From positions 1,674,001 through 1,738,000 of the forward strand of contig JAKFAO010000003.1 in NCBI GenBank assembly GCA_021527695.1: a stretch of 64,000 bases of DNA, given 5' to 3'. The notes beneath the pieces are model-generated. The model did no database searches and had not been told where the DNA came from. It saw only the letters and a program-made list of their open reading frames with translations. The DNA is from Naematelia aurantialba. Taxonomy: Eukaryota; Basidiomycota; Tremellomycetes; Tremellales; Naemateliaceae. Below are positions 45,533-50,584 of the stretch, piece after piece (within the stretch, counting starts at the first letter, position 1; each line of letters starts with the position of its first letter). The position numbers were made by a program, and so were the translations under genes.

Positions 45533-46985
45533 ATGTCCGGCGGCGCTTCGTCCTCTGTGACTCTCGGTCAGTCAGGTGCCGAGCTAGACCGGGCCAGAGC
45601 CGCACGACGTCTGGGCGCGAATGCGAGGGCAAGTACTGGTACTGGCACCAGTACAGTTACGAAGGCGAAGCCCGCTCCTCTTGGCCAAAGGGACCACAGC
45701 GCCAGTATCAGCGACACGAGCGATAGTGCCATTATCAGCGACTGCGTCAGCACGTCTGACCGGTCAGCTTCCATGTCGCCGTCGCCGTCGCCGTCGCCGT
45801 GGATGTCCGTGTCCATGCCCATGCCCACGTCGGTGCGGCCCATGGAGGAGGTCGAGCGGCCGCTGCCGCTGTGCCTGGTGTGTCTCGCGCGACCACCCAG
45901 TGCCGTCTTGCTGCCTTGTGAGTCGTCGTACCCAAGTCCCAGTCGCCGTCACCCAAGTCTCCGTCCCCCAAGTGGCCATACACAAGTCGTCACACCCAAG
46001 TCGCCGTCATCCAAGTCGCCGTTCACCACTGACCCCCACCCACCAAGAAAAGACGACTGTGCTTGTCCCTGGAGCTGACCTCTGACCTCCAGGCTGCCAC
46101 TTGAACCTATGTTACCTCTGCGCGCCAGCGCTGTTGCATCGACAACACCGGCAACGCGGTGCGGCCCCGTCTCCGTCGCAGGTCGAAACGATACCGGAGC
46201 ACAGCACGGGTCGGGTGGACGCGTCCCCTTCTGGCTTGGCATCGACTGCCGGTGATCCAGCGCCGTCTCGCGTGCAGACTGTCGGTCCGGCGCTCGTAAG
46301 TGCTGCAATCCCCATCTCGCCGTCAGCTGAAACCACCGAGCAGTCGAATGCGGGGCGTCACGAGCAGCCCCCACCGCCGACCGAAGAGATGAGGACCGAC
46401 TCATCTGGAGAAACAAGGACCGACTCCTCCGGAGAAACCAGGATTGACTCCTCTGGAGAGACGAGGACCGACTCATCTGGAGAAACCAGGATTGACTCTC
46501 CTGGAGAAACCAGGACCGACTCATCTGGAGAAACAAGGACCGACCCCCGCCTCCCGTGGTCGACCATCCTCGCCCGCGCAACGGCCAACCACCCTGCGGC
46601 CCGCCGCCTCTCGAACGGGGGATACCTCCCGCCCGTCCCTGGCTCCCGCGGCGCCGAGATGCGCGGGCCCGACCTGCTGCCTCGAGCGATTGCGGTGGAG
46701 TGTCTGGAGGTGCACGGTACACATTGTCAACACAGTCTACACAGTACACACGGTCTACACAATGTGACCTCTCACGACGGCCAGGACGTCCCCGACGTCC
46801 CCGACCGTCCGTTGGCCGCGGACGCGGACACCCGTCTCGACCCAGACCACACCCGCCTAGGCTTCTCCCGCAAGGTCAGTCCCGACGGCCAAGTCACCCT
46901 CGCCTCGAGCGTACCCGGCGGCGGGGCCAGGTGCCTCGTCTGCAGGGCCGACGTCCATGGCTGGCTCAGAGTGTATACCGGCTAG
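45533..46985 (+). CDS. MUL1-like RING protein with RING split by a repeat-bearing insertion
   Basis: Model: 45533..45917, 46093..46985; 425 aa. Residues 1-115 are Ser/Thr-rich low complexity. The RING begins LCLVCLARPPSAVLLPC, continues CHLNLCYLC, and closes only at the C-terminus with CLVCRADVHGWLRVYTG, the ending typical of MUL1/CGRRF1-type RING proteins. Ligand pairs 1-3 and 4 are therefore about 270 residues apart instead of about 10-15. The insertion holds seven tandem 8-residue units (RTDSSGET and close variants) plus disordered sequence. Cys129, the third ligand, is encoded across the splice junction (T+GC). The 175-nt intron is itself repetitive. A missed intron in the insertion is possible, but the frame is open throughout. 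Confidence 0.72.
45925..46035. repeat. 14-bp repeats inside the RING-gene intron
   Basis: Imperfect copies of caagtcgccgtcac-like words fill the intron 45918-46092. The donor gtgagt and acceptor cctccag lie just outside the array. Confidence 0.8.
46387..46551. repeat. 24-bp coding minisatellite (seven units)
   Basis: Seven copies of about 24 bp encode RTDSSGET, RIDSSGET or RIDSPGET in the insertion that splits the RING. Unit length preserves frame. Confidence 0.93.
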
Positions 46986-47518
46986 TCCCCGTATTGTACG
47001 TGTATCAACAGCGGCAAAGCAGCACAGTTATCAATAGCGTCAAAGCAGCACATTTATCAATTTAACTCAAAGCACCCAAAACGGCCAACATCCAACACGG
47101 CTACGTGACCTTTCAAGGCGGTCTGGTCTCGGGTACCCGCTTTCAGTGGTCTCAATCTGTCTCACTGTGTCAGCACTCTGCGCATGTACCAAGTCGTATC
47201 AAGCCGGCCAACATGCTGATGCATTCTAACATGCAGTAAGATCGTCCACATCTCAACGTAGACATGCTTGGTATATGCCTCGCTTGCTCCAGCCTGCCAC
47301 GGTCTGACCTCTGCCTACTCTGACCACCTGACCCCAGACCCCACCCACTGACCACCCTGACCCCGACCACTGACCCCGACCATTGACCCCGACCCGACCA
47401 CTGACCCCGACCATTGACCCCGACCCGACCACTGACCCCGACCATTGACCCCGACCCGACCACTGACCCCGACCACTCTGACCCCGAACACCCTGACTCT
47501 GACCTCGACACCCCGGCG
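46986..47518. other. Convergent intergenic region
   Basis: 533 bp between the RING gene stop (plus) and the UBA3 stop (minus). Early part has a duplicated agcgtcaaagcagcac word (47010-47060). The right part is a 31-bp repeat array. No gene seen. Confidence 0.5.
47330..47485. repeat. 31-bp tandem repeat beside the UBA3 stop codon
   Basis: About four copies of a unit like ccattgaccccgacccgacc plus actgaccccga, preceded and followed by degenerate accccga words. It ends about 35 bp from the UBA3 stop at 47519. Confidence 0.88.
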
Positions 47519-50500
47519 CTAGACATACGTGATCCCCACCGTGAGCGTAAACGGCAACCCGGGATCAGTAACCACCACCTCGTCGCCCTCGCTCAACAGA
47601 TCCGGCAGCACCTTCTCCAGATTCTTCACCGTCGCAGCATGCAGTTGAGGTGGGGCTTGGTAGTAGAGCGGCTGGCCAGAGGAGTACGCCAACGACGGCC
47701 GCGAGATTTGCCTAGGCATGTCAGAATGTGTTACAGTGGCAAGAGAGCACGGGCAAGAGAGCAGCGCCAACAAAGAGCACTGGCAAGGGAGCACTGGCAA
47801 GGGAGCACTGGCAAGGGAGCACTGGCAAGAGAGCACTGGCAAGGAAGCACTGGCAAGAGAGCACTGGCAAGAGAAACAGCACGTACAGATCCTGACGCGC
47901 TGCAAGCCAGTCGACCAGTCTCTCCAATGTCCAGTCTTTCCCGACTTCCGCGACGATCGACTCCCCTCCACACACCGGGCACTCTGGACGGCGCTCGTGC
48001 TCAAACGTGTATGCATAAATCGAATCGTTGCCCACGTACTGCGCTGGTCAGCATGGCGTAGATTCGCACAGTCAGCTAACCATCATGTAGTTGTTGAGCG
48101 ACGGCGCCGCCGTAGTCGCCAACTTGAACGCCTCGTTGCAGCAGGACGCTGTCAAGTGAGCTGGGAAATTGTCATGAGCTTAAGCGGGCTCACCCGCAAC
48201 GATAGCATTCGTGCTGGCGATTGCTGGAATAATGTTCTTCACCACTCCCTGAGTAAGAGTCCAAGTGACGCCCTCAATCTTGAACTCCGCTGCACGGGCC
48301 GCAGCCTGCTGATAGAGCCACTCGATATGATCAGGGTCATCTGTGTCCAGCTTCTTATCTGTTCGTGATCAGCTCAGCTCACCTCGCATCAAATTGTCTT
48401 ACCTTTAAAAACCTTTGGCCACTCGAGAACGCTAGCCCACTCGATGCAGTGTTCAGGTAACCGAGGGGTATTGGCGATGGTACAAATCGGATACGCCGTC
48501 GGAGGCGTGAGCATGTCGATCTGCAACCATGTCAGTTGTGTAGCGTAACAAGACGCAAGAAGCTGACAGAACACTCGTAACATGATGACACAGTTGGAAG
48601 GATGACTCTAGCTTGTCCCTTGAAGCCTGACAGTCATTAGTGGGAGCATTACGCAGCATCGAATAACCTGCCTTCTGTGCCTCCATCAATAAGAGGCTTG
48701 AGGCTATCTGGATCTTCCTCGTCCACCATCTGAACCAGAGTAGCATTGATCCACCTGCGAGCCGAGATGGAATCGAGACCCGCAATGACAATGTCGAATT
48801 TCATGTAAAACGATGGCGGATGATCTTGGATCTTGCCATGATATCTGCCGAGCGCCTCAGCACCTCCGTTCAAGCAGCACTGCGACAACCTAACGGCGTG
48901 ACTTTTACACCCGGAACCCGCTTCATGACGAATTCCGCCGCCGTGACAGCTTTGGATCTACCAACATCTGCTTCTCTTGTACTCGTAAGCTGATTGCGTA
49001 CACGAAGATACCCAACTTACCGAAACAAAAACTGCCGATTGAGGTTCGAAATATCTATCGTGTCCATGTCGATGACATGGATGTTCGAGAAGCCAGCTTG
49101 GACACATATCAGCACGCGAATCGGTTATGAATACAAATGGCACCCACTGAGAGCAAGATTCTGCAGAATCTCGCAGCCGAGTCCACCTGCACCAATGACT
49201 AGTATCTTTGCCTTGGTTCGCAAAACGTCCTTCGTCTGCGCCATGTCAGTATAATCACGATCGCCTGCTGCTCGGCGCGTAAATCACCTCGTGACCACCA
49301 ACAAACCGCTCATCCGTCCACGGTCCAGGTTTGTCCAGTACCATATCTATGCTTTCCCATCTTCCTACATTCGCCAGATAATCACGCGACGGTGATCTTC
49401 CAATGCCGTGTAGGTTCACCATCTGCGGTATATCCAACGTTTCCTTTGCCGGCTCCACATGCTGAGGCAGATCCTGCAGCATCATCCTCCATATTGCCCA
49501 GCCTACTCTGCCAAACCCTTCACCGCCCGTACCAAACTTCCCACCCAGCCGCTGACGAGCCTCATGAGCAATGGCAGAGTCGAATATGCCCTGTTGTTCC
49601 CGGTAGTCGACCATCTTGGAGACGATGGAAGGGGTGAATTCGGGGTGTCCTTGAACAGTGAGGATCTGAGCGAGTGGGTGGGCTGAGGTTGATGCTGGGT
49701 GGTACTTGACCATGGAGTGAACTGGATATTTGGGTGTCCTGAGGAGAAGATGAAAGTCAGGTGGAAGAGAAGGAACATGATCGCGGTGCTGCGTTGCTCA
49801 GTTTTTCCCAGAATGCAAACAGAGACTAACCATTTGTTCGATATACTAAATGGTGCTGTCAGTTTGGCAAATGGAGAAGCGGTCGTCCACGCACAACCTT
49901 GTCGCTCCCTCCTTGACCCTTCACATCCCCACACCACCAGTAGTTTCCTTCTTCAGTAACGTCGTTGCCGTAGACACCAATCTCCCAGCCGTTCTGCCCA
50001 GCCACCACCGTTCCTCCCATTGCCAGCGAGACGATCTGATGACCAAAGCAGACGCCGACGATACGGATGTGCTGAGTGGCTGGGTTCTTGGCAACCCGCG
50101 ACACAAAGTCGACCAGTGGGCGGATGAAGGCTATTGAAGAGTCGTGTGCCGTGTGTTCTGCTCGTGTCAACTTGGCCTACGTCTCACATGGTGCTGAGCT
50201 CACTTGAGCCAGTCATCATCACTACGTCATATCCGTCCACAGAGCCAGCCAAGAGTCGACTGTCGGGCGGGAACTCGCCCCGCTCAACCACATCGTACCC
50301 ATCAACGATGAGTTCGATGTTAGAAGCAATCGACGAGTCTGGGTAAGAAGCGAGGGAGGAAAGAAGCCATTCTCGGTATATGTCCAGATCTACAAAACCG
50401 TGAGTTGATAGGAACAACGAGGGAGACGGTCAACAGTTTCCAGACACTCACATGTACCATGCTCGGCGACCACCACAGGTAACTGTACACATTACTCGGG

Positions 50501-50584
50501 ACGTGCTCATTGCGCTTTGCATGACCTCGTACTTACAGGGGTGTCACATAAGAGAAGAGCCACGCGAGTTGTGCGCTTCGTCAT
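47519..50584 (-). CDS. UBA3: Class I glutamine amidotransferase fused in frame to NEDD8-activating enzyme UBA3
   Basis: Model: complement(47519..47711, 47887..48038, 48081..48148, 48194..48358, 48403..48520, 48568..48626, 48672..48844, 48895..48975, 49021..49096, 49148..49235, 49288..49788, 49831..49845, 49895..50157, 50204..50389, 50452..50482, 50537..50584), 738 aa. Residues 1-285: GATase1 (YLR126C-like) with nucleophile motif VGVCFGHQ (Cys about 125) and GHPEF (His about 229, Glu about 231). About 323-738: UBA3, starting [19 protein letters not shown], nucleotide motif [45 protein letters not shown], catalytic [15 protein letters not shown] (Cys about 520), and a C-terminal ubiquitin-fold-like domain. 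Exon 49288-49788 spans both parts with no stop. UBA3 alone could start at an ATG at 49422. The intron at 48671 has a GC donor. Confidence 0.85.
47755..47880. repeat. 14-bp minisatellite inside UBA3 intron 15
   Basis: About eight copies of gagcactggcaagg and variants occupy most of the 175-nt intron 47712-47886. On the sense strand it reads as ccttgccagtgctc repeats. Confidence 0.92.

Follow-up and report, generated by a model that had tools for sequence, protein, structure and literature searches.

Ubiquitin-like E1 enzymes are deeply conserved, and solved UBA3, the NEDD8 E1 subunit, carries an ATP-binding motif, a catalytic cysteine, paired zinc cysteines and an E2-binding domain. The Arabidopsis gamma-glutamyl peptidase 1 (GGP1) and the free fungal class I glutamine amidotransferases (GATases) of its group have a common fold with Cys and His-Pro-Glu motifs, and are not joined to an E1. 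Enzymes of the GMP-synthetase type consist of a class I GATase plus an adenylating domain, with the GATase placed ahead of the adenylate-forming part. GATase is also counted among the promiscuous domains of fungi, and ThiF is not mentioned in the part of that source available to us (PMC4102429).

We analyzed a stretch of 64,000 nucleotides from the edible jelly fungus Naematelia aurantialba (contig JAKFAO010000003.1, positions 1,674,001 to 1,738,000; hereafter the window), where a gene on the minus strand at 47519..50584 joins a class I GATase to UBA3. The GATase half has the motifs and, judging from the predicted structure of a relative, the fold of GGP1 and the free fungal enzymes, and differs from them in being attached to an E1. 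The UBA3 half has all the listed elements of solved UBA3, from which the window protein differs by approximately 320 extra N-terminal residues that contain a second enzyme domain. The order of domains recalls GMP synthetase, but ThiF/UBA3 is not an amide synthetase. Our search of open-licence full text, including a YLR126C-directed search, found no report of a GATase–UBA3 fusion among the papers listed. Sequence comparisons indicate that the conserved gene fusion is real and that it gives UBA3 an apparently new domain architecture. We consider it probable that the locus is a single gene encoding one chain, in which a short flexible linker connects a gamma-glutamyl-peptidase-like GATase to a complete UBA3.

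Gene model and domain composition

Splicing the minus strand by hand from the ATG start at 50584 to the stop codon ending at 47519 yields 16 exons in a single frame of 738 codons plus the stop, a model matched by four full-length relatives. The 501-nt exon 6 (49288..49788) joins the end of the GATase to the opening of UBA3; its frame 0 is open throughout, while each of the other frames contains five stops. The hand-built model thus reproduces the extent, exon number and stop-free exon given in the preliminary description, including its observation that the GATase has no stop of its own ahead of the UBA3 part. Given the base composition of exon 6, an open exon of 167 codons has a chance of ~0.0008, but an open linker of 40 codons alone has a chance of 0.18. 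The weight of the fusion claim therefore rests on the same join in other species rather than on openness.

Fourteen of the 15 introns are GT-AG, and intron 10 (48627..48671) is GC-AG. The donor of intron 9, GTTAGG, is unusual. Intron 15 (47712..47886) measures 175 nt, compared with 42–62 nt for the remaining 14, and consists for the most part of a 14-bp tandem repeat of 9.7 copies at 47737–47874. Further repeats lie downstream of the gene: a G+C-rich tandem array of 31-bp and related units at 47320–47513, directly 3' of the stop codon, and a 24-bp tandem repeat of 6.4 copies at 46385–46544, within long open frames on both strands. The published gene set of N. aurantialba NX-20 was built with Augustus and homology, and RNA reads are not mentioned in the portion of the article at hand (PMC8777972); a later paper, as far as its accessible part goes, assigns NX-20 to the N. 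sinensis clade (PMC13085929).

Pfam places the domains in the order GATase (residues 111–235; 33.3 bits against a cut-off of 22.8), ThiF (356–645) and E2_bind (655–734). The GATase half (PF00117) comprises residues 1–285, encoded at 49477..50584 by exons 1 to 5 and part of exon 6. Its nucleophile Cys125 is encoded at 50048..50050 within the motif GVCFGHQ, and His229-Pro-Glu231 at 49639..49647 within GHPEF. The UBA3 half comprises residues 320–738, encoded at 47519..49374 by the end of exon 6 and exons 7 to 16; residues 323–732 match solved UBA3 (1tt5) with an E value of 3.2e-129. The ThiF domain (PF00899, 195.6 bits) has the ATP-binding GxGGxG pattern as GAGGLG at 363, and the E2-binding domain (PF08825) scores 84.7 bits. 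Cys520 (codon at 48482..48484) lies in a CTIA motif aligned to solved UBA3, where we take the cysteine to be the catalytic site; CYEC at 503 and CPVC at 644 are also present and presumably supply the zinc ligands. Both active sites are thus intact at the level of sequence, as had been proposed. An amide-synthetase partner domain is absent from the chain, in which the Pfam search shows GATase, ThiF and E2_bind only.

Residues 286–319, encoded at 49375..49476, form a poorly conserved linker. In four relatives the linker is 21–45% identical to that of the window protein over 34, 34, 25 and 11 aligned residues, against 57–66% for the GATase and 72–85% for UBA3. Such low identity is as expected for a spacer. 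The corresponding residues 293–321 of P0001, the relative whose structure was predicted, have pLDDT below 50 and are predicted to be disordered. The P0001 model as a whole (mean pLDDT 80.0, pTM 0.47; alignment of 42 rows, with the partner subunit absent) has a confident GATase and a UBA3 with several weak stretches. The top match of its UBA3 part is solved UBA3, with a poor overlay (rmsd 12–13, TM 0.30–0.54 by target), and at this pTM no contact between the domains could be read from the model. A bulky fusion partner at the N-terminus is not necessarily detrimental to UBA3, because an MBP–UBA3 chimera has been solved in a trapped activation complex (PDB 2nvu).

We searched the genome (20,997,016 bases, 15 contigs) for further copies of both halves. 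The best candidates scored with the fused protein contained no second UBA3: they comprised this locus, exon by exon, and three weaker pieces matching UBA3 residues 360–534. A search with a divergent N. encephala GATase hit only this locus among the best candidates scored, and so revealed no second GATase of this type. That query, P0147, is a second, free GATase of N. encephala located on another contig, 51% identical, with no counterpart found in the genome of the window. Ten other places in the genome, distributed over contigs C3, C4, C9, C12, C13 and C14, match PF00117; the PF00117 genome search skips the locus itself, where the GATase is spread over six exons.

Distribution and history of the fusion

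The preliminary description had suggested looking for the same fusion in related genomes, and it is found in proteins of Tremellales and Trichosporonales. A homologue search with the full protein scored 7992 candidates, 3058 of them above threshold. Among the best 120 listed, four cover the query at 100% with all three domains: P0001, P0002 (Tremellales sp. Uapishka_1), P0003 (Vanrija albida) and P0004 (Cutaneotrichosporon spelunceum), at 64–74% identity. These share the three domains with the window protein and differ from it in the length and sequence of the linker. The GATase half of V. albida, searched against proteins of fused size, found six matches: the same four, query included, and two without UBA3, one of them from Marchantia and the other, which has a different additional domain, from Coniferiporia. 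The gene model P0162 of Coniferiporia weirii joins the same type of GATase to PF11779, perhaps through a model error. Where database names are given for the fused relatives, they refer to the NEDD8 enzyme only or read 'hypothetical'.

Other records carry parts of the join. In Cryptotrichosporon argae (Trichosporonales), model P0006 begins inside the GATase and extends through UBA3, while the GATase front is carried by a truncated model, P0148, on a contig of equal length; annotation seems to have split the fused gene within the GATase. P0168 and P0230 are single-exon ORFs that cross the same junction and end soon past the position of intron 6. The GATase models of N. encephala, Saitozyma and Papiliotrema are tagged 'partial'. 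In N. encephala and Saitozyma the 'partial' GATase and the UBA3 models apparently come from the same contig, which is indirect evidence of fusion in each species; the Papiliotrema model has no UBA3 model paired with it. N. encephala also provides the closest UBA3-only protein among the matches listed, with 91% identity over 59% of the query. Counting against the fusion, UBA3-only models exist in Tremellomycetes outside Cryptococcus/Kwoniella and Filobasidiales (P0005, P0007, P0008, P0016, P0018 and P0039). Tremella mesenterica and Kockovaella are listed with UBA3 alone, in a comparison of protein models. The earlier statement that GATase and UBA3 are normally separate genes agrees with the remaining homologues in the list, but needs qualification for the several Tremellales and Trichosporonales that have the fusion in common.

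Cryptococcus and Kwoniella have GATase and UBA3 as separate genes. By a rough pairing of contigs, with values taken from protein clusters and a hand-made list in which some pairs perhaps represent different strains (as in two Schizophyllum rows), the separate genes share a contig in five of the six paired Cryptococcus/Kwoniella species, 16–41 locus tags apart (C. decagattii being the exception), and lie on different contigs in 15/15 Agaricomycetes. Phylogenomics with Trichosporonales as outgroup, in the part of the study available, resolves two clusters within Tremellales, the first with Cryptococcus and Kwoniella and the second with ten further genera, and sets Phaeotremella apart (PMC7147457). 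Naematelia presumably belongs to the second cluster.

Constraining the fused rows to a single clade is not rejected by the GATase (p 0.28 and 0.265) or by UBA3 (p 0.401), and is marginally rejected when both are joined (p 0.047). The fewest state changes number three on the GATase tree, two on the UBA3 tree and two on the joined tree. A history of two fusions needs the same number of changes as one fusion followed by a split, and the gene trees do not decide between them. We favour an early fusion with one split because the separate genes are still linked in Cryptococcus/Kwoniella: a single fusion probably preceded the divergence of Tremellales and Trichosporonales and was later broken in the Cryptococcus/Kwoniella line.

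One chain or two products

As the alternative to a fusion, the preliminary description had proposed an internal promoter, with UBA3 starting from one of two ATG codons. One, at 49422, is Met304 of the linker (codon at 49420..49422); the other, at 49244 (49242..49244), falls within intron 6 and, since it shares the frame of exon 7, would start a truncated UBA3. The locus would then consist of two overlapping units: most UBA3 would be free, and the GATase would be terminated through readthrough or an undetected splice. A start at 49422 would place 32 residues ahead of GPWT in UBA3, a length that falls in the 26–39 range of eight free Cryptococcus/Kwoniella UBA3 rows, and the UBA3 of N. encephala is indeed annotated from a linker Met. 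However, the linker regions of the window and N. encephala align without gaps (23/39 identities), and in this alignment Met304 is replaced by Thr and the annotated Met of N. encephala corresponds to Ile301. A linker Met is present in four of the six fused species, as well as in P0168 and P0230, but the linkers of V. albida and C. spelunceum have none past the end of the GATase. A start at 49244 loses the conserved UBA3 opening, the segment GRWxxID...GPWT. Both internal starts are disfavoured on these grounds, and separate translation of UBA3 appears unlikely. A linker too short to accommodate separate tails is not evident: the 30 residues from GATase core to GPLT in C. spelunceum are about equal to the shortest free GATase tail and UBA3 lead together (5 and 26).

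A hint of a fused message comes from comparing P0001 with two other proteins. P0151, from the same source as P0001, has extra stretches at four intron sites of the window gene model, after residues 16, 27, 88 and 176, and P0156, from another source, has one after residue 89; these inserts look like introns translated unspliced. All 15 intron sites are free of insertions in P0001, whose nine extra residues are confined to the linker. Since the intron-derived inserts of P0151 are missing from it, P0001 was probably read from a spliced fused transcript, although its contig, at 3,958 bases, would also leave room for introns. If P0001 does derive from spliced RNA, the fused message is real in that species. 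Such a transcript, like the lack of a GATase stop in exon 6, runs against two overlapping units, an arrangement to which we assign a small chance.

A join of this kind might also arise as an artefact of assembly or gene modelling, neighbouring genes being open to merging by automated pipelines, or the two proteins might be made separately from one polycistronic mRNA. Polycistronic mRNAs are reported as widespread in some mushroom-forming fungi, where readthrough transcripts, in the part of the report available, have several stops in all frames between their ORFs (PMC4503453). Exon 6, by contrast, has no in-frame stop between the halves, for which reason we rejected a polycistron, and the same join recurs in the records of other species, which speaks against an artefact. 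Either origin is scarcely credible for this locus. For the single fused gene, we infer from the sequence that a fused mRNA and protein are made in this fungus, with both halves active.

Predicted chemistry of the GATase half and its relation to neddylation

The best solved relative of the GATase half by sequence is GGP1 (E value 1.8e-12). The GATase of the P0001 model matches structures 9k7i–9k7l with TM 0.81–0.87 by target at 23–24% identity. The matched structures include an H192N gamma-Glu intermediate, and the GGP1 histidine that is Asn in 9k7l aligns with His229 of the window protein. Free GATases of Cryptococcus/Kwoniella are 48–67% identical to the window GATase. The window protein retains both motifs, Cys and His-Pro-Glu, as do 31/31 other GATases checked, a set that leaves out the truncated model P0148. 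The domain had been suggested to be a dead GATase used for regulation, an idea that we rejected in view of these conserved motifs. The other suggestion, that the fusion ties glutamine hydrolysis to neddylation, loses ground as well: gamma-glutamyl hydrolysis is likelier than glutamine hydrolysis because the GATase is closest to GGP1, and no link to neddylation was found. Amidation of NEDD8 fuelled by glutamine, in the manner of GMP synthetase, was likewise rejected, the chain having no synthetase domain and its nearest structure being a gamma-glutamyl peptidase. Homology at 23–24% identity thus makes an active gamma-glutamyl hydrolase likelier than either an inactive domain or an amidotransferase supplied with glutamine. 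Loss of GGP1/GGP3 in Arabidopsis leads to accumulation of glutathione conjugates, according to the accessible part of the study (PMC11449216).

For the single chain, we envisage one polypeptide of ~80 kDa, the size estimated at the outset. Its UBA3 half would pair with the NAE1/Ula1 subunit and carry out the usual activation of NEDD8 for transfer to cullins; the genome contains three cullin neddylation domains and therefore likely substrates for the pathway. Its GATase half would hydrolyse a gamma-glutamyl bond, most likely that of glutathione or one of its conjugates. The join would hold the two enzymes at equal dose in one place, and would require no cross-talk.

Alternatively, the GATase might regulate neddylation from within the chain, for instance by deamidating NEDD8 or a cullin or by stripping glutathione off the E1 cysteine. 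A bacterial effector family reportedly deamidates a glutamine of ubiquitin and NEDD8. The catalytic motifs are intact, the fusion persists in two orders, and cellular glutamine amidotransferases are able to deamidate proteins, as stated in the available text of one source (PMC8092204). Against such a role, Cryptococcus and Kwoniella manage with separate genes, the linker varies in length and sequence, no fixed arrangement of the domains is predicted, and the closest solved structure belongs to a gamma-glutamyl peptidase of metabolism. We regard a regulatory GATase as quite improbable. The more specific proposal, that the tethered GATase deamidates NEDD8 or cullin, or clears glutathione from the E1 cysteine, and so couples gamma-glutamyl and redox metabolism to cullin ligase activity, is a long shot. 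Of what was originally put forward, the fusion itself is upheld, and the functional coupling is possible but unsupported.

The fusion may serve as a phylogenetic marker. It also carries a warning for annotation, as gene models seem to split the gene in C. argae at least. If the halves prove independent, the locus would be a clear example of a stable, neutral gene fusion. In this fungus the sole UBA3 copy found carries a second enzyme, an association apparently undone in Cryptococcus/Kwoniella, and together these lineages would constitute a natural experiment on the link between metabolic state and neddylation.
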